Shown one piece after another: positions 1-54,993 of a DNA stretch of 64,000 nucleotides (its first letter is position 1; each line of letters begins with the position of its first letter). Origin of the DNA: Cordilura impudica (Eukaryota; Arthropoda; Insecta; Diptera; Scathophagidae); NCBI GenBank assembly GCA_963682025.1, contig OY821517.1:55648216-55712215 (forward strand), read 5' to 3'. The position numbers and the translations under genes were made by a program. Below the pieces are notes generated by a model, which saw nothing but the letters and a program-made list of their open reading frames with translations, made no database searches and was not told the origin of the DNA.

Positions 1-126
1 TTTCGCTATGAAACGTGGATATATCATAAAACACGATAAGTGACCCGTAATTTTTTAGCTGCTCATCTCATAATTTTCACTTGTAACACAAAGAGACCAT
101 ATCCAAATTGGACCTTATATACGAGG

Positions 127-163
127 CACTTTGGTCAATATTTTGAGGTAGCGGCCAAAACTC
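127..163 (+). repeat. Transib left terminal inverted repeat
   Basis: It starts with the heptamer CACTTTG, followed by a 23-bp spacer and then AAAACTC. The outer flank is CGAGG at 122-126. It matches the reverse complement of 3877-3913 at 29 of 37 positions, differing at repeat positions 4, 5, 14, 16-18, 22 and 29. Confidence 0.88.
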
Positions 164-851
164 CTTTTGGTTTTTGTTCTCCGATTTTAAAGTTATTAGA
201 GTCATATGAAAGTAGACAGTAGTAAACCTCGGGAGCCAAAAAATTAGAACTCCACTTCAACTATTTCACTGAGAACAGGGTGGTCCAAAATGGGCTTTTT
301 CAGAATTTAGTAAATTTATGATATTTTTAGTTAATTTTTAAAGTTTAAATGATCATAACTTTTTTGTTTTTCAAGATTTTTGGACGAAATAAATTTTGTG
401 TTGTAACTTAACTTATTTCCTATTACTCTTCTGTTTTCAGAACAATTTAAATTTTTTTTTTTAAAAAGGTCAAATTTCTCGGAAATTTCCTACTTCATAG
501 AGCACAACTCCTGTGAGTCAAGCTGAGTCAAAACACAAATTTACTATTTTGTAGTCCTAACTCTCCCCTATATTCCTATATATACATGTCCATGCATCGG
601 GACTGCACTTTTTGAGCTACAGAAATTTTTCTGACCCAAGGTAAGATATTCGGTACAAATGCACGTCATATTTTTTGAGAAGTTATTTGTATGTGAAAGT
701 GGCTATTATGCATATATTTTGATGAAATTTTGTACAAGAGTTCTTATTGACCCAAAAAATAATTCTGTTGAAATTAGGAGAAGTTGGCCCATATTTGGAC
801 CTAGTCCACATAGAAGGATGTATCAAAATTTTGACAAAAATGACAATAGAA

Positions 852-1165
852 CTCTCAAATTATGTGGTATCTGGCAATTCATTTGGAAAAGGTAAAAAAG
901 ATTTTATTGCCTTCTAATATTACATAACTTAAGTACGTGAAAATTGCAAATAAATTTAAAACCAGTGGAAATAACTGGTAAAACCAAGTACCTTTTATAT
1001 TATTGCCAGTACCTGTTAACTCTCAAATTATGTGGTATCTAGCAATTCATTTGGAAAAGGTAAAAAAGATTTTATTGCCATCTAATATTACACAACTTAA
1101 ATACGTGAAAATTGCAAATAAATTTAAAACCAATGGAAATAACTGGTAAAACCAACTACCTGGTA
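852..1165 (+). repeat. Tandem duplication of about 168 bp in the Transib 5' region
   Basis: A block beginning CTCTCAAATTATGTGGTATC at 852 starts again at 1020, and the following ~145 bases match with few changes. The unit lies wholly inside the Transib leader, upstream of the transposase start. The DNA just before it (659-850) contains a diverged stretch resembling the DINE-1-like repeats elsewhere in the window (a '...GGACCTAGTCC-CATA' core). Confidence 0.85.
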
Positions 1166-1263
1166 TATTATGTTTCAAAGAGGTAAAAAAGATCATGTTG
1201 AAACTTCGAGCAATAGTATATTAATCCATGCATTCATTTTTTTTCTTCATTATTGTTTAAACA

Positions 1264-3270
1264 ATGGCTAAATTCAGTTATAGTGTTCTATCTGATATAT
1301 ATTTTGAACGGAAAGATGAAAACGACATTATTTTACATATAATGAATAATCCATTCTTCAAAATATGCGACAAACAAGAAATTAAAATTCATAACTTAAA
1401 AATAAAAAACTTTTTAAATACTTTAAAAAAACGGTACAATCAATGTTCCAGAAACAAGAAATTGTTTTACTTACGCAACCAAGAATGGCTAAGAAATAAA
1501 CTTATTTTTAAAAAGCCATCAGTAACTACCACGGAAACTGGAAAAGGTGGTCGACCAGCAAAGCCAATTGATAATTGTAGTGAAAGATCACGAAGACGCA
1601 AGCTTAAACATATCAATGAAGAAGTTTCTTGTAGCATCATAAAGGATTCATTTCTGCATCAAATTCAACCATCGAAAACTAAAAAGGGTAAAATTGCTAT
1701 CATTGAAAAAATAGTGGAAGCAAGCCCCAGACGCACAAAAAGGATTTTAGAAAGTATGCCGACACCAACTGAAGAAAATAAATTTACTCCAGAAGAAGCA
1801 TTTGCACTATTTTTGGATTTGAAAATGACTAAAAACCAATATACAGAATTGCGGAAGCGAACCAATGAAAAAAATTGTGGAATTTTTCCATCATATCGAG
1901 ATATAGTTTCTGACAAAAAAGATTGCTTACCTTCACCAACTGCTATTAGTGTAACTTCAAGTTCAGCAGAAATAAAATTGCAGGATCTTCTTGAACACAC
2001 TGCAGAACGATTATTAAAGACATTTGATGCTGACTATTTAAAGAAGTTTAAAAATTGCAGCATGACTTTAATTTCTAAATGGAGATGTGATGGGTCCTCT
2101 GGCCAGAAACAATACAAACAATGTAATGCGGAAAATTCATCAGATGCCAATTTATTCATGATTTCTTTCGTTCCATTACGTTTAACAAAAACTTATATTG
2201 GTTCAGAGCCGTCAACTAGTAGAGCTGCAGAGATAGATGTATGGAAGAATGAAATTCCCTCGTCAACAAAATTTTGTAGACCAATAAAGTTTGTTTACAA
2301 AAAGGAGACTCAAGATGTCATAGATGAAGAAGTTCAAAAAATAAATGATGAAATTAAAGAACTTCAACCAGTAACATTTAAATTTGATGACCAAGACATT
2401 GAAGTAAATTTTAAAATGTGTCTCACAATGATTGATGGAAAAGTTGCACAAGCTTTAACCAAAACAAAGTCATCGTCAAGCTGCACCATATGCCAAAAAA
2501 CATCAAGTCAATTGAGCCAACCATCAACACAAGGCGATAGTTTTAATGAAGCATATGAATTTGGAATGTCACCTCTTCATGCTAGAATTCGTTTTATGGA
2601 GCATATTCTTAAATTGGGATACGATTTGGAATTTGGCCCGTTAGGCGAAACAGTGAGAAACAACAAAGAAAATTTGGAAAAAAGAAAGCAAAAAAAAAAA
2701 GATATTCAAGAAAACTACCGTGAGATAGGCCTTATAATTGACCAGCCAAAGCAAGGAGAAGGAAATTCTAACGATGGAAACACAGCAAGCAGATTTTTTA
2801 CCGATCCAGAAACTGCAGCTTCTATAACTGGAGTAGATTATGATTTAATACGACGATTCCAAATCATATTACAAGTTATAGCATGTAGCAAAAAGATAGA
2901 TGCAAAAAAATTTGGTCAGTATGCTAATGAGACAGCAACCCTTTATAACCAAAAATATTCTTGGAGATATATGCCAACCACAGTTCACAAAATTTTGTTC
3001 CATGGGGAACAAATAATTCAGCACAATATGCTTTCAATTGGAGATCTCTCAGAAGAAGCCCAAGAAAAAAGGAACAAAGACTACAGATTCTTTCGCGAGC
3101 ACAATACACACAATACAAGAAAAATTTACAGATATTGTACTAATGAAGATCTTATTAATATTTTGTTGTGCACATCAGACCCATATATGTCCAGTATTCG
3201 ACAAAAATGGAAATCAACCTCATTAGATTTAGATGAAGAAGCTAAACAACTACTGCAAAATGAAAATTAA
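1264..3270 (+). CDS. Transib transposase (RAG1-like DDE recombinase), intact
   Basis: A 668-residue uninterrupted reading frame starting at ATG 1264, within the usual size range of Transib transposases. It should act in the nucleus as a DDE endonuclease cutting at the CAC termini of its own element. The catalytic triad can be placed by alignment to the RAG1 core from memory: Asp276 in CDGSSG (RAG1 D600), Asp391 in MIDGK (D708) and Glu601 in SEEAQEKRNK (E962). The zinc ligands also fit: Cys407/Cys410 in CTIC, and His575/His580 in VHKILFH with the same five-residue step as RAG1 H937/H942. The N-terminal ~150 residues are basic and probably bind DNA. No RAG2-like partner is present. The flanking terminal repeats and target duplication support the assignment independently. 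Confidence 0.92.
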   Translation: MAKFSYSVLSDIYFERKDENDIILHIMNNPFFKICDKQEIKIHNLKIKNFLNTLKKRYNQCSRNKKLFYLRNQEWLRNKLIFKKPSVTTTETGKGGRPAKPIDNCSERSRRRKLKHINEEVSCSIIKDSFLHQIQPSKTKKGKIAIIEKIVEASPRRTKRILESMPTPTEENKFTPEEAFALFLDLKMTKNQYTELRKRTNEKNCGIFPSYRDIVSDKKDCLPSPTAISVTSSSAEIKLQDLLEHTAERLLKTFDADYLKKFKNCSMTLISKWRCDGSSGQKQYKQCNAENSSDANLFMISFVPLRLTKTYIGSEPSTSRAAEIDVWKNEIPSSTKFCRPIKFVYKKETQDVIDEEVQKINDEIKELQPVTFKFDDQDIEVNFKMCLTMIDGKVAQALTKTKSSSSCTICQKTSSQLSQPSTQGDSFNEAYEFGMSPLHARIRFMEHILKLGYDLEFGPLGETVRNNKENLEKRKQKKKDIQENYREIGLIIDQPKQGEGNSNDGNTASRFFTDPETAASITGVDYDLIRRFQIILQVIACSKKIDAKKFGQYANETATLYNQKYSWRYMPTTVHKILFHGEQIIQHNMLSIGDLSEEAQEKRNKDYRFFREHNTHNTRKIYRYCTNEDLINILLCTSDPYMSSIRQKWKSTSLDLDEEAKQLLQNEN

Positions 3271-3540
3271 AGCTATTTTTAAGAAATTTTTACTAATATT
3301 GTTTAACTAATACTAGTTTAAAGATTATAATTTGTTTCTAATTTTAGTATAAATTTTTATTAATACATTTAAATAAAATATATGTGCACTTTAAATCAAT
3401 AGTAAAAGTTTACTTAAAATTTTATCGATGTTGTGTTCTGTATATAATATATCCAAATGGTATTGATATTGTTGGGAATTTCAGTGTTATTTTTCAGTTT
3501 AATCCTCACAAGAATTAGCTTTCTTCCAAAAAAACCAACC

Positions 3541-3586
3541 TTTGGCCCCTGTGAATATTGAGACTAAATAAATGTCAGGGGCCAAA
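3541..3586. repeat. Perfect 11-bp-arm hairpin in the Transib 3' region
   Basis: TTTGGCCCCTG (3541-3551) and CAGGGGCCAAA (3576-3586) are exact reverse complements around a 24-base loop, about 270 bases after the transposase stop codon. It could fold in the transcript. A role in 3'-end formation is only a guess. Confidence 0.75.
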
Positions 3587-3876
3587 TGTTGGCATTTTCT
3601 GACCAAAATTAAGTTTAGGAATAATAAATAAGTATTGGTTGTAAAATACGATTGAAGAAAATAAGAAATTATAAAAAAAAATACCTATTTAAAATGTCAA
3701 AATATTCAACTTTTACATGGAAACTCAACAAAAAATTAAAATGCATTTTTAACTCCAAATTACTTACGTTCCTATCAGTCGATTTTTACGTTTGAACACG
3801 CAAATTGAAGCTTAAAGTCCCTCCTATTGAACAAAATAAATTGCGTAAAAAAATACCAATCCGGTCAAAAGTTATA

Positions 3877-3913
3877 GAGTTTTGACCGCTATCTCGCGAA
3901 ATTGACCACTGTG
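3877..3913 (-). repeat. Transib right terminal inverted repeat
   Basis: Read inward on the minus strand it begins CACAGTG, identical to the consensus heptamer of vertebrate recombination signal sequences, followed by a 23-bp spacer and AAAACTC. The outer flank is CGAGG at 3914-3918, matching the left flank. Confidence 0.88.
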
Positions 3914-4029
3914 CGAGGGCGGTAGCAGTAGAACCTAGTAGTTTGGAAAAAATTACTTTGGTGAAAATTGGCGTCCATATAAAACACATGTTTTAAGTTC
4001 AAGGCGCCACGCTGTTTCGTATTTTTCTT

Positions 4030-4990
4030 TTCTTTTTGCAGTCATCAAAACTAAACGATCTCAGTGAATTTGTAAACATGGATAAAATTGGTTACCGTTT
4101 TGTAATTCAATACTATCATCTGAAAGATCTCAGTCCAACTATCATTAAAGCCAACCTAGATTCTACTCTGTTGGAGTCTACTCCTTCGTTTACAGCAGAG
4201 TTTAAACGTGGCTGTACGACCTGCCAATACGAACGAAGGTGCGTGCGTTAGCTGAAATGATAGTCATTTAAAAAAATGTTTTATATCGCATATTGGCCGA
4301 ACATTTAGAGTTGAGAAAGCTGTCCGCCAGATGGGTGCCGCGTTTGCTCATAACAGAAAAAAAACCGCGTCATGAAGATTCAATAGAGTGTTTGGCGATT
4401 TATCACCACAATAAAGACGAGATTTTGCATCTATTCGTAACCATGGATGAGACATGGATCCAAGACATCACATCTGAGACAAAGAAACAGTCGAAACAGT
4501 GAACTGAAATGGAAGAATTGTATCCAGAAAGGCGAAGACAGTTTCATCTGCAGGCAAGATTATGGCCTCTGGTTTTTGAGATGCGTGTGGAATAATTTTT
4601 ATTTATTATCATCAAAAAGGATTTCCTATTGTAGCGTTTAAGTGTCGCAATTAAGAAAAACAGGCCGCATTTGTCGAAAAACAAAGTGTTGTTTCATTAA
4701 GTCGCATCTACCATTGCGATAATCAAAATATATGAATCAAAGTTCAAATTGTTTCGTCACGCACCTCATTCGCCAGATTTAGCTCACTCGGATAATTTTC
4801 TATTTCCAAACTTAGAAAAATGGCTCGCTGCATGATGATGATGATGCGGATGACAGATATTTTAAGGAGCTAGGTAGTTCTTCCTGTTAACAGGGTATCG
4901 AAGTTGTTGAATATCATTGAGAAAAGGGAATCGAGCTGGAAGGAAATTAAGTTGAGAAATAAAGATAATTTTTCCCAAATTTGTTGTTTT
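4030..4990 (+). pseudogene. Degenerate mariner transposase (mauritiana-like)
   Basis: Conceptual translation in shifting frames recovers most of a ~345-residue mariner transposase. The N-terminus starts at ATG 4078 (MDKIGYRFVIQYYHLK). Then come LRKLSARWVPRLL with the first catalytic Asp in VTMDETWI (about 4440-4460), and HAPHSPDLAPSDNFLFPNLEKW near 4755-4820, which carries the last catalytic Asp. The C-terminal tail is readable to ~4985. Several stops and frameshifts make it inactive. I could not find terminal repeats. It begins about 115 bp beyond the Transib target duplication. Confidence 0.8.
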
Positions 4991-5515
4991 CATTTTTACC
5001 GTAAATGATATTTGCCAAAAGCTATCAACTAGAATATACGACATGCACGATCATGCTCGTGTGAAACTCAGAATTATTACACACAGTTCTATTTTAGTGA
5101 GAACGTAAATGTTCGATAAAGCGGCTAGTGTATGATACCTTCTTTTGACCACTAATATGTGATTGAGAGGCTAATAAAAAATACATCTCAATTATTTCCT
5201 TCGCGTTCTATAACATCTCCAAGTTTCTTCGTGATCTGCTGGTGCCTCCCATGAGACCTTCCTTGCAAGTACAGTCATATTTTTAGAAAAGAAAAGTTGC
5301 TGTTTTTTTAAAGAACTTCAAGACTTTTCCAAGAACGTTTTTGAAATAAGGATTAATTGGATGCCAAATCGATTAACTTCACCTTAAAATTTGTGAAAAT
5401 GTAAATGACAAAGCGTTTGTTAGCGACTAACTGTTTATATTCAAACAAATTTCTCTAATAATAAGGATTAACACCATTAAGACCAGTTTAGTAGTAGCGA
5501 AATTTGTTTTGAATA
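4991..5515. other. AT-rich spacer, no feature recognised
   Basis: No coding similarity or terminal repeat seen. A motif GCCAAATCGATTAACTTCAC near 5350-5380 recurs inside the hairpin at 50.8 kb. Confidence 0.5.
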
Positions 5516-27795: not shown

Positions 27796-29111
27796 AAGGG
27801 TCCGCCATCTAACGTTTTTTTTTTCAACTAGTGCTTGTTTCGTGAATGGTAACACTTAGCTCATGTCTGATTTGACAGATAATAACTTTTATCCTTCCGC
27901 TGAACGAATATGGTTGTGTGTACGCTTGAACAACGCTGGGAAATATTGCGACATTACTTTGAAAATCATGGAAATGTTGCAGAACGTGTGCGAAAATTGC
28001 GTACGGATTTTGGAAGAAGAGAAGCACCGTCAGCTCCGTATGGTCGTTATCTTGTGAAAAAAAAGTGAAAGAAACTGGCATCCTCATCGATAAACCAAAG
28101 CGTTAAAAGCCAAAAACAGTGCGTACACCCGAGAATATTGCTGCTGTGGCAGAAAGTGTGCGTGAAGCGCCATCAACATAAATTCACCGTCGTTCTCAAG
28201 AATTGAACATTTCGGAGGCATCATTGAGACGAATTTTGCATAAAGACCTTGGTATGACGCCATACAAAGTCCAATTGGTTCCGGAGTTGAAGCCAACTGA
28301 CCATCCAATGCGTTTTCGCTTCGCTAAGTGGGCCTGCGATCGACTTACAGAAGATGCCGATTTTGGCAAAAAAAAAAATAATCTTTTCAGATGAAGCTCA
28401 TTTTGATCTTGGCGGGTATGTAAACAAGCAAAATTGTCGCATTTGGGGCACAGAAAATCCGCACGCAGACATTGAAAAGCCGATACACCCAAAACGAGTC
28501 ACTGTTTGGTGCGGATTTTGGTCCAGAGGCATAATTGGGCCATTTTTCTTCGAAAATGAGCAAGGAGTGGCCGTTACAGTCAATGGCGATCGTTATCGGG
28601 CCATGTTGAACGAATTTTTGTTCACAAAAATTGAAGAGGAGGATATTGGCAACATTTGGTTTCAACAGGACGACGCTACGTCCCACACAGCCGAAGCTAC
28701 ACTCGATGTTTTGCGCCCTGTTTTTGAAGATCGCATTATCAGCCGCAGAGCTGATGTCGTTCGGCCACCTCGGAGCTGCGATTTGACACCGTTGGACTAT
28801 TATTTGTGGGGTGCCCTCAAAGATAAGTGTTACGCCAACAAGCCAGAGACAATTGACGCTTTAAAGGACAATATTCGTGAAGCCATTGGTGAAATACAGC
28901 TGCACACAATCGATAATGTGCTTAAAAATTGGACCGATCGTGTAGGCTACTGCATGGCCAGCCGAGGCAGCCATTTGAATGAAATTATTTTCCATTATTA
29001 ACCGGAAGGATTGTACTTTCAAATAAAAAAAGAAATTTGAGATAATATTCAGTAGTTTTTTTTTTTATAGCATTTTCAAAAAAAAAAAAAAAAGTTATTT
29101 GGCGGACCCTT
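27796..29111 (+). mobile_element. DD41D mariner-like element, copy B
   Basis: A 1,316-bp element with termini AAGGGTCCGCC / GGCGGACCCTT flanked by TA (27794-27795, 29112-29113). It encodes a degenerate transposase (next entry). Near-identical relatives are at 39486-40786 and 44175-45440. Confidence 0.9.
27910..29001 (+). pseudogene. DD41D transposase, frameshifted (copy B)
   Basis: From ATG 27910 the frame begins MVVC and contains the paired helix-turn-helix (RWEILRHYFENHGNVAE ... NISEASLRRILHKDLGMTPY). It breaks at an A-run (11 A, ~28368-28378) just before IFSDEAHFDLGG, the first catalytic Asp. The second block is FQQDDATSHTAE and the third CDLTPLDYYLWG, with 41 residues between the two Asp. 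It ends GSHLNEIIFHY at 29001. Other lesions are a frameshift near 28060 and stops near 28105 and 28181. The family is annotated in animals as mariner/SETMAR-like. Confidence 0.88.
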
Positions 29112-33672: not shown

Positions 33673-35221
33673 ACAAGTAAGAAAATTCTGGTCGGTCTGG
33701 ACCAACCATACAATACCCTATAGCATACGTTTCGAGAGAGGATCTTGGATCCAACCTTTCTGAGCCAATAACAGGATATAGAAAATAAGCATAAACCACA
33801 ATTTAGTGCTATCGTTACTAACTTGTGGCGTGTAGATAAGAAAAAGCTCATATCTGACGTTATTTTTATATGGGAACTAGGTCAAAAATTGTACCAATCT
33901 TGACAATATTTAGCAAAGTACTGTACTTTTTTCAAATACATATAAAAACTAAATTTGAAATAATCAATGCAATATTTTTATTTGTTTTTTTTTTTTAGAT
34001 TTAAGTGAAGTGTTAGTACCAATAAGGTCACTCAAGAACAACATGGACCCAGGTTTAGATGGCATTTCACCTGAACTGCTAAAAACCGATCCACATATTA
34101 GTGCACAGATAATTTTGCCCCCCCATCTGTACAACTGAATCACCAACCAGCGAGCTTAAAGGCGCGATCCTTAAAATTCCCTAAAAATGCGACCTTAAGG
34201 ATCGAAACAACTGGCGAGGAATAACTCTTCTCAGCATGGCCAATAAAATAATTGCTCACATAATCACAAAGCGAGTTTAGGACGTAATTACACCAGTATT
34301 GAGAAATGAGAATATCCAGTAATGACCATGTCGATATCCTGAACAGTCGGCTGAAAAGCGATCGTCACTATATCTCTGCTTTGTCGATTTGGAAAAAGCA
34401 TTTGACACATTGGATCGCAACGTTTTATGACAAAACTATTCTCCCTGATTCAAAGTTTATATCACCAGGCAGCCTGCCGAATCCTGCATGAAGGGAAATT
34501 AAGCAAGCAAATTTCAGTAGCCGTTGGAGTACCCCAAGGTTGTGTTTTACCAGCACTTCTCTTAGATATTGTCCTCGACACTATTATGGCTAAGGCTATG
34601 CAGAATGGCAGAGGCATAAGGTGGGGTCTGCATGGTAGCTTAAGTGACATATATTACGCAGACGATATCAGTATTATGATACACAACTTCGAGGATATGA
34701 TAGTCAAACTGTTACAGCTAGTCGATTGTAACCGTGAACAAAAGTTGGGAATAAATAAAATACCTCGCCCAAGATAAAGCACATTGGAACGACGGGAACA
34801 TATATATATATAAGTGAAGATCGGTAATCAGCTTTATATGGTGACTATGACCAAATATATTCCTGGTTTATAAATGGTTTATTTTTGAACTACTGGCTCG
34901 TATAATAAGCACACATACACATACATAAAAATATTAACGAGGCCTAGGTCTGTACATGCGCCGATTTTCACAAAATTTATTATCGTTCGTACCTATGTTC
35001 GATAAAAGCTCATATACTAAATTACGTCAAAATATATTCATATTTGCGACCTGTAGTTTGATCACAAGTTTAACATGGACACACAGACAGATGGACAGAC
35101 GGACGGGCATCGCTAAATCGAGTGAGGGATTCTAAGTCAATCGGTATAACAAATATTGCTGGTAGTTACAAACAACAGTACAAACTCATTATACACTCAC
35201 CACAGAGTGGTATATGGTATA
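33673..35221 (-). mobile_element. DINE-1-like element, copy 3, carrying a nested LINE
   Basis: Plus-strand start ACAAGTAAGAAAATTCTGGT, with a degraded GGTCGGTCTGGACCAACC palindrome, and the body interrupted at 34010/34811. It resumes with AAGATCGGTAATCAGC and ends at the ATGGTAT edge near 35221, including the AGACAGATGGACAGACGGAC tract. It is orientated opposite to copies 1 and 2. Confidence 0.72.
34002..34819 (+). pseudogene. 5'-truncated LINE reverse transcriptase with 9-bp target duplication
   Basis: The insertion at 34011-34810 is flanked by the exact direct repeat TAAGTGAAG (34002-34010 and 34811-34819). Broken translation shows KNNMDPGLDGISPELLK, VGVPQGCVLPALLLDIVLD and GLHGSLSDIYYADDISIMIH. 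This gives the reverse transcriptase order with the YADD catalytic box. The 3' end is a short (AT)n tail rather than poly(A). It is a different LINE family from the FADDS copies at 12.4 and 19.6 kb. Confidence 0.82.
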
Positions 35222-39485: not shown

Positions 39486-40786
39486 AAGGGTCCGCCATCT
39501 AACGTTTTTTTTTCAACTATTGCTTATTTCGTGAATGGTAACACTTAGCTCATGTCTGATTTGACAGATAAGGATAAATCCTTCCGCTGAACGAATATGG
39601 TTGTGTATACGCTTCAACAACGCTGGGAAATATTGCGACATTACTTTGAAAATCATGGTAATGTTGCAGAATGTGTGCGAAAATTGCGTACGGATTTTGG
39701 AAGAAGAGAAGCACCGTCAGCTCCGTATGTTCGTTATCTTGTGAAAAAAGTGAAGGAAACTGGCATCCTCATCGATAAGCCAAAGCGTGAAAAGCCAAAA
39801 ACAGTGCGTACACCCGAGAATATTGCTGCTGTGGCAGAAAGTGTGCGTGAAGCGCCATCAACATCAATTCACCGTCGCTCTCTAGAATTGAACATTTCGG
39901 AGGCATCATTGAGACGAATTTTGCATAAGGATCCTGGTATGACGCCATACAAAGTCCAATTGGTTCAGAAGTTGAAGCCAACTGACCATCCAATGCGTTT
40001 TCGCTTCGCTAAGTGGGCCTGCGATCGACTTACAGAAGATGCCGATTTTGCCAAAAAAAATCATCTTTTCAGATGAAGCTCATTTTGATCTTGGCGGGTA
40101 TGTAAACAAGCAAAATTGTCGCATTTGGGGCACAGAAAACCTGCACACATACATTGAAAAGCCGATACACCCAAAACGAGTCACTGTTTCGTGCGGATTT
40201 TGGTCCAGAGGCATAATTGGGACATTTTTCTTCGAAAATGAGCAAGGAGTGGCCGTTACAGTCAATGGCGATCGTTATCGGACCATGTTGAACGAATTTT
40301 TGTTCACAAAAATTGAAGAGGAGGATATTGGCAACATTTGGTATCAACAGGACGGCGCTACGTGCCACACAGCCGAAGCTACACTCGATGTTTTGCGCCC
40401 TGTTTTTGAAGATCACATTATCAGCCGCAGAGCTGATGTCGTTTGGTCACCTCGGAGCTGCGATTTGACGCCGTTGGACTATTATTTGTGGGGTGCCCTC
40501 AAAGATAAGTGTTACGCCAACAAGCCAGAGACAATTGAAGCTTTAAAGGACAATATTCGTGAAGCCATTGGTGAAATACAGCTGCACACAATCGATAATG
40601 TGCTTAAAAATTGGACCGATCGTGTAGGCTACTGCATGGCCAGCCTAGGCAGCCATTTGAATGAAATTATTTTCCATTATTAACCGGAAGGATTGTACTT
40701 TCAAATAAAAAAAGAAATTTGAGATAATATTCAGCAGTTTTTTTTTATAGCATTTTCAAAAAAAAAAAGTTATTTGGCGGACCCTT
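39486..40786 (+). mobile_element. DD41D mariner-like element, copy C
   Basis: 1,301 bp with termini AAGGGTCCGCC / GGCGGACCCTT flanked by TA (39484-39485, 40787-40788). It is the best preserved of the three close copies. Confidence 0.92.
39597..40683 (+). pseudogene. DD41D transposase with a single frameshift (copy C)
   Basis: ATG 39597 opens a 159-codon frame with the paired helix-turn-helix. After DADFAKK the A-run (8 A, 40053-40060) shifts the frame, and the rest continues in another frame from IIFSDEAHFDLGG to GSHLNEIIFHY at 40683. All three catalytic Asp are kept (FSDEAH; QQDGATCHTAE; CDLTPLDYYLWG, 41 residues between the last two). One base in the A-run is the only clear lesion seen over about 360 codons, so it is either a young pseudogene or a slippage-dependent gene. 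Confidence 0.9.
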
Positions 40787-41689: not shown

Positions 41690-43210
41690 TAGTGAAAAAG
41701 AACTGGCGGATTGTAGCCTGCTTAGAGTTCGCTTGCTTCCATTTTTTGTGCATTTCTCCAAAACGGGTTTCCAAATTGTTTAATTTTTTATATGACATAA
41801 AATCACTTAAAGCAAAAGCTTTCAAACATGCAATCTGTGTTAGGGCTTCTTCGAACGATTTAATTTTATCGATTTCTTGCTCTGCAACATCCTCTTCTGA
41901 ATCACTTGATAATATTTTGAAGTTTATTTCAATGTCACCATTTTATGCAGTGTTATCGATGTGTAAAAATTCTTCAAAACTAGGCTCATCAGTTTCTGAA
42001 ATTCTTCGAAAATTCAGAAGTGTTGCTAATGGCACATCATCTTCGGGTTCAAATTCGTCTACAATTTGGTTTTGATCCATGAATCCGGCTTTGCGAAAAC
42101 AGTTTTTTATTGTAGAAGGTTCAACTTTATTCCATGCGATTTTCATAAAACATTTTGCGTCCAGAACAGTGATACTCTTTGAAAGCTCTGATACTGATTT
42201 GGCCGAACTCATTTTTGAGATTACGTAATTCAAAATCAAACTTCTTTAGTTAACTTTAAAATTTTGAACTATGCCTTGGTCCAGAGGTTGGCAAATCGAT
42301 GTTGTATGTGCTGGCAAAAAGCTTACATTAATATTGGTAAGTTACAAGTCCCTAGGATGAGATGCAGCATTGTCTAAAAATAAAAGAATTTTTCTATTGC
42401 AAGACTTAATTTTGTTATCCAAATGATGCAACCACTCGCTCATTGTGTCTCCCGTCATACAGGCCTTTTTATTGGATTTCCTTTTTTTTAAATGCGGGGG
42501 GCGAGCAGCTTCACCAATAACTAACATTATTTCTTTCACCCACCATGTTTACACAAAACAAGATTGTTAACCTTTTTTTGACAATTTACTTCCGGTACAT
42601 TTTTCTGATTTAAGGCCAAAGTTTTTATAGGAAGTGCTCGAAAAAAACCACTCTCGTCTGCATTGTAAATGTCTTCGGGCTTATAGTTACAAAGTATTGA
42701 AGGGAGTTTTGTCTTAAATTGCATCACATCTTCTGGAGTAACGTCCGCGGCCTCTCCTGAAATGCACCTAAAAGCAACACTGTGTCGCTTGCGCCATTTT
42801 TGTAGCCACCCACTTGAAGCAGAAAATCTATGATAATCAATTTTCTCAGCTATTTTTTTCGTCTTTGCCTTTACATTTGGTCCTGATATAGGCAAATTCT
42901 TGCTTCCGGTAATTACAAACCAATCAAAACACATATTGTCAACTTCCGAACCTTTTGTCGAAAAACAATTCTTTTTATAATTAATGTTAAATCCAGATTG
43001 CCATCTGGCTCTAAGATGTTCATTATCTTTTAGAATGCTCGCAGACTGAGTTTTTCCAATATTAAATCTTAAAAAATATAAAATGTTTAAAAATTTTTTT
43101 TTTTTATTGCAATACCTTTTTGCAATTTCACGTACTGAAAGATTTTCTTGTTCTTGAACATTTATAATTTTAATTTTTTCTTTTAATGTAAGAGAATTTC
43201 GCCCAGCCAT
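41690..43210 (-). pseudogene. pogo/Tigger-type transposase, degenerate
   Basis: From ATG 43210 the minus strand reads MAGRNSLTLKEKIKIINVQE (CENP-B-like N-terminal helix-turn-helix). A second DNA-binding domain follows (KIDYHRFSASSGWLQKWRKRHSV), then the DDE_1 catalytic start DIYNADESGFF near 42660. Next come SNKKACMTGDTMSEWL and ILLFLDNAASHP (second Asp) in frame 42342-42539. After frameshifts, LPAHTTS..QPLDQGIVQNFK leads to a C-terminal acidic tail ending near 41690. Several stops and at least one frameshift. I found no convincing terminal repeats. Confidence 0.85.
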
Positions 43211-43409
43211 GTGACAATTAAAGTTCTTCAATAAATTGTTATAACACCTTACTCCCAAATGAACTCGCTTAAAAAAACAAGAAAACCATGCAACAAACTT
43301 TCAATGATCAATTGGATAAGGGGGAATGGGGTGCACCCATGGCAGACAGACAGACAGAGAGTATGAGTTAAAAGAGAGAGTTTAAAAATAAGTACCGTTT
43401 TGACATTAA

Positions 43410-44174: not shown

Positions 44175-45440
44175 AAGCGTCCGCCAAATAACTTTTTACT
44201 TTGAAAATGCTATAAAAAAAAACTAATGAATATTATCTCAAATTTCTTTTTTTATTTGAAAGTACAATCCTTCCGGTTAATAATGGAAAATAATTTCATT
44301 CAAATGGCTGCCTCGGCTGGCTCGATTGTGTGCAGCTGTATTTCACCAATGGCTTCACGAATATTGTCCTTTAAAGCTTCAATTGTCTCTGGCTTGTTGG
44401 CGTAACACTTACCTTTGAGGGCACCCCACAAATAATAGTCCAACGGTGTCAAAACGAAGCTCCGAGGTGGCCAAACGACATCAGCTCTGCGGCTGATAAT
44501 GCGATCTTCAAGAACAGGGCGCAAAACATCGAGTGTAGCTTCGGCTGTGTGGCACGTAGCGCCGTCCTGTTGAAACCAAACGTTGCCAATATCCTCCTCT
44601 TCAATTTTTGTGAACAAAAATTCGTTCAACATGGACCGATAACGATCGCCATTGACTGTAACGGCCACTCCTTGCTCATTTTCGAAGAAAAATGGCCCAA
44701 TTATGCCTCTGGACCAAAATCCGCACCAAACAGTGACTCGTTTTGGGTGTATCGGCTTTTCAATGTATGCGTGCGGGTTTTCTGTGCCCCAAATGCGACA
44801 ATTTTGCTTGATTACATACCCGCCAAGATCAAAATGAGCTTCATCTGAAAAGATGATTTTTTTTTTTTGGCAAAATCGGCATCTTCTGTAAGTCGATCGC
44901 AGGCCCATTTAGCGAAGCGAAAACGCATTGGATGGTCAGTTGGCTTCAACTCCTGAACCAATTGGACTTTGTATGGCGTCATACCAAGGTCTGTATGCAA
45001 AATTCGTCTCAATGATGCCTCCGAAATGTTCAATTCTTGAGAACGACGGTGAATTGATGTTGATGGCGCTTCACGCACACTTTCTGCCACAGCAGCAATA
45101 TTCTCGGGTGTACGCACTGTTTTTGGCTTTCCACGCTTTGGTTTATCGATGAGGATGCCAGTTTCTTTTACTTTTTTCACAATATAACGAACATACGGAG
45201 CTGACGGTGCTTCTCTTCTTTCAAAATCCGTACGCAATTTTCGCACACATTCTGCAACATTACCATGATTTTCAAAGTAATGTCGCAATATTTCCCAGCG
45301 TTATTCAGGCGTATACACAAACATATTCGAACAGCGGAAGGATAAAACTAATTATCTGTCAAATCAGACATGAGCTAAGTGTTAAAATTCACGAAATAAG
45401 CACTAGTTGAAAAAAAAAAAACGTTAGATGGCGTACCCTT
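44175..45440 (-). mobile_element. DD41D mariner-like element, copy D
   Basis: 1,266 bp flanked by TA (44173-44174, 45441-45442). Its termini AAGCGTCCGCC (plus) and AAGGGTACGCC (minus) each have one change from copies B and C. Confidence 0.9.
44300..45324 (-). pseudogene. DD41D transposase, frameshifted and C-terminally deleted (copy D)
   Basis: ATG at 45324 (MFVYTPE) is followed by a stop in the seventh codon after it. The body then matches copies B and C with the helix-turn-helix domains, IIFSDEAHFDLGG, QQDGATCHTAE and LTPLDYYLWG. The A-run before IIFSDEAH is 12 A (44867-44878 as T on the plus strand) and breaks the frame. About 50 bp near the 3' end are deleted, so the reading frame ends EIQLHTIEPAEAAI instead of the normal GSHLNEIIFHY tail. 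Confidence 0.88.
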
Positions 45441-53007: not shown

Positions 53008-54993
53008 CCCATTAACCGCCAAAATGAAACTAGCAGTGATAATTAATAAAAAAGTTTATTTTTTATTCATTGTATACAAAATTAATATAAAAGTATGAAA
53101 AAATTAAAAAAAAAATAATAATAAATGGGCGGAGTAGGGTGGGTGTACTCAACTGAGTACAGTGGCGGGTTACAGGTGAAAATTTTCAAAACATTTTTTT
53201 TCAATGCATAATGTTTTTAAACACTCTTGCATTGCCAGCGAACTCTTGCATGACATAAAACACATCTTAATTGTTTTTCTAACTTTTCGGGGTAATGACC
53301 TATACCATCTTGGGGTAGTCCTAGGACCAATGAAGATTAAAGTCGAGATTTATTTTGCTCGTTTTAGCGTAAATAGTACCTTGCAATGGAGCGTCGGAAT
53401 AAAAGTGATCCATGCTATCGTTATGACTCATTACATATAACCGCCAAGCGTTTGCAATTGCCATATCTATTATATAGGTAAACAATGCCCACCACCATTT
53501 CTTACCGCGAATGGCAATTCTGTAGAGTGAAATGGATTGGTCCAGTTCATCTACTCCTCCCATATGTTTATTATTTATAAGACTGAAACACCTTTGGTAG
53601 GATGATGACCAAAATATTTTACCAACGACTCATCAATGGAAATATGCTCGTGCAATACTCCCCACTGAAGAAATTTCTTCATTATAACATCAGCTAATGG
53701 CCGAACTTTAAACATTTTGTTCCTAGTAGTGTCAGCTTCGTCATTGTTCACAAGATGAAGATTCTTTTTGATATCTCGATATCTTTGCCTAGACATTGAT
53801 TTTGATACCATTTGTATGCCAACATCCTCATCGTAAGACCAGTATAAATCCTCTCTGGGTAATTTGTGATACCCAGAGAATATCAGTACACCCATAAATT
53901 TTTTGATGTCGACGGGGTCAAGTTGAAAGTGATGTCTATTATTTTGATTGGCATATAAAATTGTATTGCTGATAATCAAACTAGTCACTTCTTCATCAAA
54001 TATTTTCTCGAATACTTATACTAGGTTGAGATTACTAAACAACTTCCTTACATCTTCTTGTCTTTCGGGCACATCAGTCGATACCTGAGATGTTGAAAAA
54101 TATGTTGGTAAGCACTTACGCCACGCTGGTAGTTAACTGCGGCCTCTCTTTACCTTTTCGGCCAACGGTTCATCATCGCTACTGTCGATGTCATCACTTA
54201 AAATTATGTTATTATTGCGTCTAAACACCTCAATATTACCTGGCACATCTCTCGGCAAGTTGTCAGCTACCATGATCTCATCACCACCTTCTTCTTCATC
54301 TGATAAAACACTCGACTCCGGCGGAATGATTGCGAAATCATATAAAGAATCACTGTCACTATCTTCCAATATTGCGTTAACAGCTTCTTCTAATCCTTTG
54401 AAACCATTACAAACTTTAAAGCGTTTAGAACTCATCGTACCTTATAGTCTCAACACAACTTATAAATGTTTAATCTAACACTAAACAGCTTTTTTCAAAT
54501 CAGTCACTACCAGTAGAATTGATATTTTGGGAATCCCCTTGTTACATAGATAAACACGTAAGTATGTATTGCAGAAACACGCAATTATCCATTTCTGTAA
54601 ATATAATAGTGATGCCACAATTTTTATATGGATTCCGCCAGCTGTATTTAAAATACGATAACTTTCTAAAAGGAAATGGCAAACCATTTTTTTTACATAT
54701 TTTAAAAAAAGAAATACTTGCCTTTAGAAAACTAAAAAAAAAAAGAAAATTGCAATACAGTAAAAGCAAAAAAAAAAAATGGAAAATCTGAGTTTATCTC
54801 GCCACACCAATTTTGTATAAGTTTAAGAGTCCATTTGTGACAGTTGATATGTATATACCAAACTTTTTTTTTTTGTTATTTTAGCTAGGTGCGGGATTCT
54901 TTTAAGGTTAAAACGCAAAAAAAAAACCAAAAGCTTTAAAAATTTCACATAATGTTTAGGTGTACTCAATTGAGTACATCGGTGCCAAATGTG
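53008..54993 (-). mobile_element. piggyBac element, internally deleted
   Basis: Bounded by TTAA at 53004-53007 and 54994-54997, the piggyBac target site. Inner ends are CCCATTAACCGCC (left) and CACATTTGGCACC (right, minus strand), a weak inverted match. A GTACTCAA(C/T)TGAGTAC palindrome lies near each end (53145-53160, 54962-54977). The gene inside is on the minus strand. Confidence 0.65.
53321..54435 (-). pseudogene. piggyBac transposase (PGBD-like) with central deletion
   Basis: ATG at 54435. An acidic N-terminus (EAVNAILEDSDSDSLYDFA ... SDDIDSSDDEPL) is typical of PGBD proteins. After a frameshift near 54125 and a stop near 54010 comes the DDE_Tnp_1_7 domain (DIKKFMGVLIFSGYHKLPRE, MSRQRYRDIKKNLHLVNN), with the first catalytic Asp in ISIDESLVKYFGHH. 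Sequence then jumps directly to MGGVDELDQSISLYRIAIRG, where the third Asp lies in GGVD. The roughly 150-200 codons between, including the second catalytic Asp, are missing. The C-terminal cysteine-rich domain is not visible. Confidence 0.85.

Follow-up and report, generated by a model that had tools for sequence, protein, structure and literature searches.

A full-length but damaged Transib transposon, probably left by one past burst, in the fly Cordilura impudica

Is a transposon with an open transposase frame, paired termini and an exact target duplication a transposon that still moves? The question is raised by a Transib element at positions 127-3913 of the window, the 64,000-nucleotide stretch of Cordilura impudica DNA analyzed here, which the first-pass annotation presented as complete, apparently intact and a candidate for a currently active relative of the V(D)J recombinase. 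The observation was correct and the interpretation too strong: the superfamily is a known one, and the element belongs to a burst family in it and is damaged. With a probability of about nine in ten, we read the window copy as complete in length yet impaired, the product of a single past burst of a Transib family.

The anatomy of the element bears out what was first seen in it. The sequence CGAGG at 122-126 recurs exactly at 3914-3918 as a 5-bp target site duplication, its fourth base departing from CGNCG, and the 37-bp terminal inverted repeats inside it (127-163 on the plus strand and 3877-3913 on the minus strand), read from their outer ends at 127 and 3913, both start with CAC and are identical at 29 of 37 positions, the right one with the outward heptamer CACAGTG. 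Other copies in the genome share the boundaries at 127 and 3913. On the plus strand, two internal repeat copies (850-1003 and 1018-1171, spaced by 168 bp) precede an uninterrupted ORF of 668 amino acids (1264-3270), with an ATG start and no internal stop. A homology search with this ORF matches residues 169-651 of HzTransib from Helicoverpa zea (PDB chain 6pqn and related entries; phmmer E 7e-106) and gives weak matches near the third catalytic residue to RAG1L (6b40; E 6.5e-4) and vertebrate RAG1 (6xnx; E 0.0075). Because a Pfam search of the ORF returned no family above the cut-off, homology was established from the matches to PDB chains and proteins; the protein search found 122 relatives at E <=0.001, the best 120 of which include named insect proteins, and PF26100 is present in many of the homologues. 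Residues D276, D391 and E597 are present in the window copy and in all 41 homologues that we chose, mostly full-length ones, from those best 120; the alignment, read with RAG1 biology in mind, makes them a candidate DDE triad. Transposase homology with the three acidic residues and terminal inverted repeats starting with CAC, which is described as the key feature of the heptamer (PMC8355894), place the element in the Transib superfamily. The 5-bp G+C-rich CGNCG target of Transib is likewise a property of the family, the window copy's own target being CGAGG.

Comparison with sister copies revealed changes that are hidden in a single sequence. Of the 3777 positions that can be compared with the majority of the 31 other copies aligned, the window copy differs at 37, and 27 of these differences occur in it alone. 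Twenty of its codons are not those of the majority: 17 changes are missense, 1 is synonymous and 2 are stops, with the second stop and one missense change lying downstream of the first stop; counted strictly, the private coding changes are 1 synonymous, 15 missense and 2 stops. The premature stop, TAA at 3268-3270, stands where 30 of the 31 sister copies have glutamine and one has a gap, and it ends the frame 12 codons before that of the family, which runs for 677 codons to a stop at 3304-3306. The C-terminal tail that it removes shows little conservation across homologues, and the protein may therefore do without it. At 3100-3108 lies a private insertion of 9 bp, absent from all 31 sister copies, which repeats HNT and thereby adds three residues at a place where none of the 41 homologues has any. 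Three private substitutions fall on residues that are the same in 41 of 41 homologues: G274R (2083-2085), two residues before the candidate catalytic D276 and glycine in all 31 sister copies as well; R509S (2788-2790); and P591S (3034-3036), all of these coding changes being on the plus strand. The 13 other missense positions that we examined are less telling since their residues vary among the 41 homologues, although at S622 serine is present in 36 of the 41. At the left end, base 131 of the heptamer is T in the window copy and G in all 31 others, two of which (L012 and L037) have lost the left CAC. Relative to its family, then, the window copy carries lesions in its transposase and is no intact autonomous Transib, and the description "apparently intact" falls with the premature stop, the private insertion, the three changes at invariant residues and the altered heptamer. 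The 668 open codons, the intact candidate triad and the poor conservation of the lost tail are points against the damage reading.

The family to which this copy belongs is large. In the 1.49-Gb genome, the 37-bp pattern of the left end has 959 matches at up to three mismatches and that of the right end 943, against none for reversed control patterns of both ends; a DNA search with the element gives at least 50 matches at 91-100% identity (best 39 of 4076 candidates scored). Among the loci that match the window best, we cut 32 copies end to end, the window copy included, and added five chosen by position for their exact left end within 18 Mb of the start of contig 1; L025, L028-L031, L035 and L039, which were incomplete or unresolved end to end, were left out of the alignments. 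These 37 copies represent less than 4% of a family of roughly 950 and are mostly the window's best matches, so that younger clusters could be missed. The five position-picked copies are all full length, with exact duplications and one internal repeat unit each.

Exact left ends make up 88 of the 100 matches listed, all on contig 1. For 67 of these 88, an exact right end from among the 100 listed lies no more than 12 kb away, the median spacing being 3617 bp. Of the 67 pairs, 28 span 3550-3640 bp, which corresponds to one internal repeat unit, 5 span 3730-3830 bp, corresponding to two units as in the window, 9 are shorter than 3400 bp and 13 longer than 4200 bp. Among 39 fetched copies, the repeat of 168-bp spacing upstream of the ORF has one unit in 5, two in 31, three in 1 and four in 2. 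We dropped the idea, taken from the first set, that two units are the norm: one unit is commoner among the position-picked copies and the end-to-end spacings, and the first set is therefore biased to the window's form. Variation in unit number was singled out at window positions 850-1171 and at L033, L034 and L039.

The sampled copies appear to have been drifting since one burst, as both the shape of their tree and their synonymous share suggest. The tree of the 37 copies is a star, with tips summing to 0.434 and inner branches to 0.016, and its members look about 1% diverged from their founder; the window's tip (1.18%) lies close to the median (1.08%), and the shortest, that of L002, is 0.43%. 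Within the 32 best-match copies, the closest pair is 0.93% apart and the window's nearest relative 1.3%. These 32 copies carry 418 private coding changes, of which 305 are missense, 89 synonymous and 24 stops. The synonymous share is thus 21.3% (89/418), and the mutation spectrum of the copies' own noncoding sequence predicts 21.5% in the absence of selection (p = 1.0); the window copy alone, with 1 of 18 synonymous, shows no significant departure from that expectation (p = 0.15). Private changes are denser outside the ORF (9.7 per kb) than inside it (6.4), a difference that presumably reflects repeats and noisy alignment of the noncoding parts but could hide weak constraint. As one of many ageing copies with a damaged-looking enzyme gene, the window copy is most likely an ordinary relic, not an active element.

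A copy that is dead as a gene could nevertheless be mobile in trans, moved by the working transposase of other copies, and open frames in the family bear on this. The full 677-codon frame is present in 3 of the 32 copies (L012, L026 and L033) and in none of the five position-picked ones. A protein search, which favors good frames, found a 678-codon stretch without stops at 12 loci besides the window, those three included (best 66 of 44579 candidates scored), and this number is a lower bound. With at least 12 other full frames, some activity may persist elsewhere in the family; open frames are not rare here, and the window copy is not the best candidate. Its ends, moreover, are largely kept. 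Against mobility in trans, the star tree, with its shortest tip at 0.43% and its closest pair at 0.93%, gives no indication of recent movement in the sample, the pooled coding changes bear no sign of selection, and a base of the window copy's left heptamer is changed. On balance we consider it doubtful that the window copy still moves with borrowed enzyme.

The commonest lesion that we noticed in the family is an A-rich stretch at 2664-2712, out of frame in 20 of the 32 copies, for which homopolymer slippage and assembly error are both possible explanations. The protein relative P0001, which has 95% identity over 71% of the query and probably belongs to the same family, ends at 487 amino acids, close to this stretch, and several genome copies here are frameshifted at the same place.

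It is very improbable that the window copy is an active element today, with its own protein cutting and joining its own ends. The copy has the open frame, both ends, the exact duplication and the candidate catalytic triad that such a copy would have; against these stand the premature stop, the three changes at residues invariant in 41 of 41 homologues, the changed heptamer base, the insertion found in none of the other 31 copies, a tip of only average length and a nearest aligned copy, among the 32, that is 1.3% away. The first-pass suggestion of a currently active element thus gives way before the lesions, the position in the star tree and coding changes of the kind expected without selection. 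Domestication of the window copy by its host would account for a frame that has stayed open in a set of 32 copies whose frames are mostly broken, but it is hardly credible. We rejected it on the make-up of the coding changes, since 15 missense changes, 1 synonymous change and 2 stops are the opposite of purifying selection, both ends and the target duplication are still present, and other open-frame copies exist.

The insertion sites show that the family integrated as Transibs usually do. An exact 5-bp duplication flanks 35 of the 37 copies (30 of 32 in the best-match set and all 5 position-picked), and 26 of these 35 duplications have the form CGNCG (23 of 30 and 3 of 5, respectively), the sequence given as the Transib target (PMC4735498). 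For each of the 37 copies, we joined the flanks, keeping one duplication, and compared the result with the window and the fetched loci. Three of the 37 have gap-free paralogous empty sites across the junction. The join of L019 matches window positions 44949-45148 at 98%, ungapped over 200 of 200 bases; that of L022 matches window positions 28576-28775 at 96%, ungapped; and that of L020 matches L006 at 96.5%, ungapped, a junction that is less telling because the target of L020 is a GACG-type simple repeat. From the ungapped joins of L019 and L022, both insertions sit in copies of a repeated transposon-like element, unoccupied relatives of which lie in the window. Copies of this element were seen at 28088-28998, 39591-40683 and 44300-45300, and one of these unoccupied relatives has a DUF4817 helix-turn-helix domain at 39591-40076, which we take to be mariner-like.

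The search for empty sites thus succeeded for these other copies; for the window copy, it found no second locus spanning the join among the best 40 of 59 candidates scored. The window join matched the two halves of its own locus and, besides these, parts of the repeat that neighbors it in the right flank; two of these parts, 82-83% identical, extend past the junction by 7 to 10 bases to the left. This degenerate repeat runs from 3937 onward, about 18 bases past the right target duplication, and many copies of it, at 71-83% identity, occur in the genome; the Transib lies beside it, not inserted within it. Elsewhere in the window there is a DDE_Tnp_1_7 fragment at 53578-54015, presumably piggyBac-like, and other mobile-element fragments at 42539-43300 and 34406-34774, with HTH_Tnp_Tc5 / CENP-B_N and a piece of reverse transcriptase.

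In 5 of the 37 copies, the CACAGTGG terminus of another Transib-like element, read outward, lies directly past the 5-bp duplication, on the left in L002, L013 and L051 and on the right in L016 and L032; the abutting terminus of the type seen in L002 is about 80% identical to the family's right end. The simplest reading suggests that existing CGNCG-like Transib target duplications serve as new targets. It is possible, though unlikely, that some of the approximately 950 copies encode a working transposase and that the family would thus provide a naturally active RAG1-like Transib that habitually inserts in target duplications beside older Transib ends.

In established Transib and RAG biochemistry, the ends are cleaved with hairpins formed on the flanks, and the freed ends then undergo strand transfer. 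If the window copy arose in this way, a working transposase would have paired the two ends and excised the element, leaving hairpins on the flanks, and would have joined the ends to target strands presumably 5 bp apart at a CGNCG-like target. Function would have been lost in the window copy later, through substitutions, the 9-bp insertion and the premature stop.

The window copy changes no open question. What it illustrates is that an open frame and an exact target duplication are insufficient to mark an active transposon, as both can outlast function. The family, with about 950 matches per end, boundaries that are known and 12 or more full frames, forms a natural set for studying the end and target preferences of Transib. 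Among the publications compared, mostly by title, no title points to this Transib family, which we do not on that account present as new.

Among known systems, the nearest with a structure is HzTransib, described as functional (PMC8355894), which is a separate family with a different sequence; its chain conserves G274, R509 and P591, whereas the window copy departs at all three. Six further proteins (P0002-P0007) are full length and 53-57% identical to the window transposase. The RAG1 and RAGL recombinases have CAC ends and 5-bp duplications in common with the window element. RAGL transposons combine RAG1L with an adjacent RAG2L, whereas the window element shows no RAG2-like gene among ATG-started ORFs of at least 80 amino acids; only one such ORF overlaps positions 1-5000, so no RAG2-like gene of such size is seen. 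Transib1 of Drosophila, likened here by description and not by sequence, is likewise a fly Transib DNA transposon, and its very recent invasion is reported to have spread through D. melanogaster in 2013-2016, so that flies are already known to harbor active Transibs (PMC12230796). Set against that spread of a few years, the sampled copies of the window's family look about 1% diverged from their founder.
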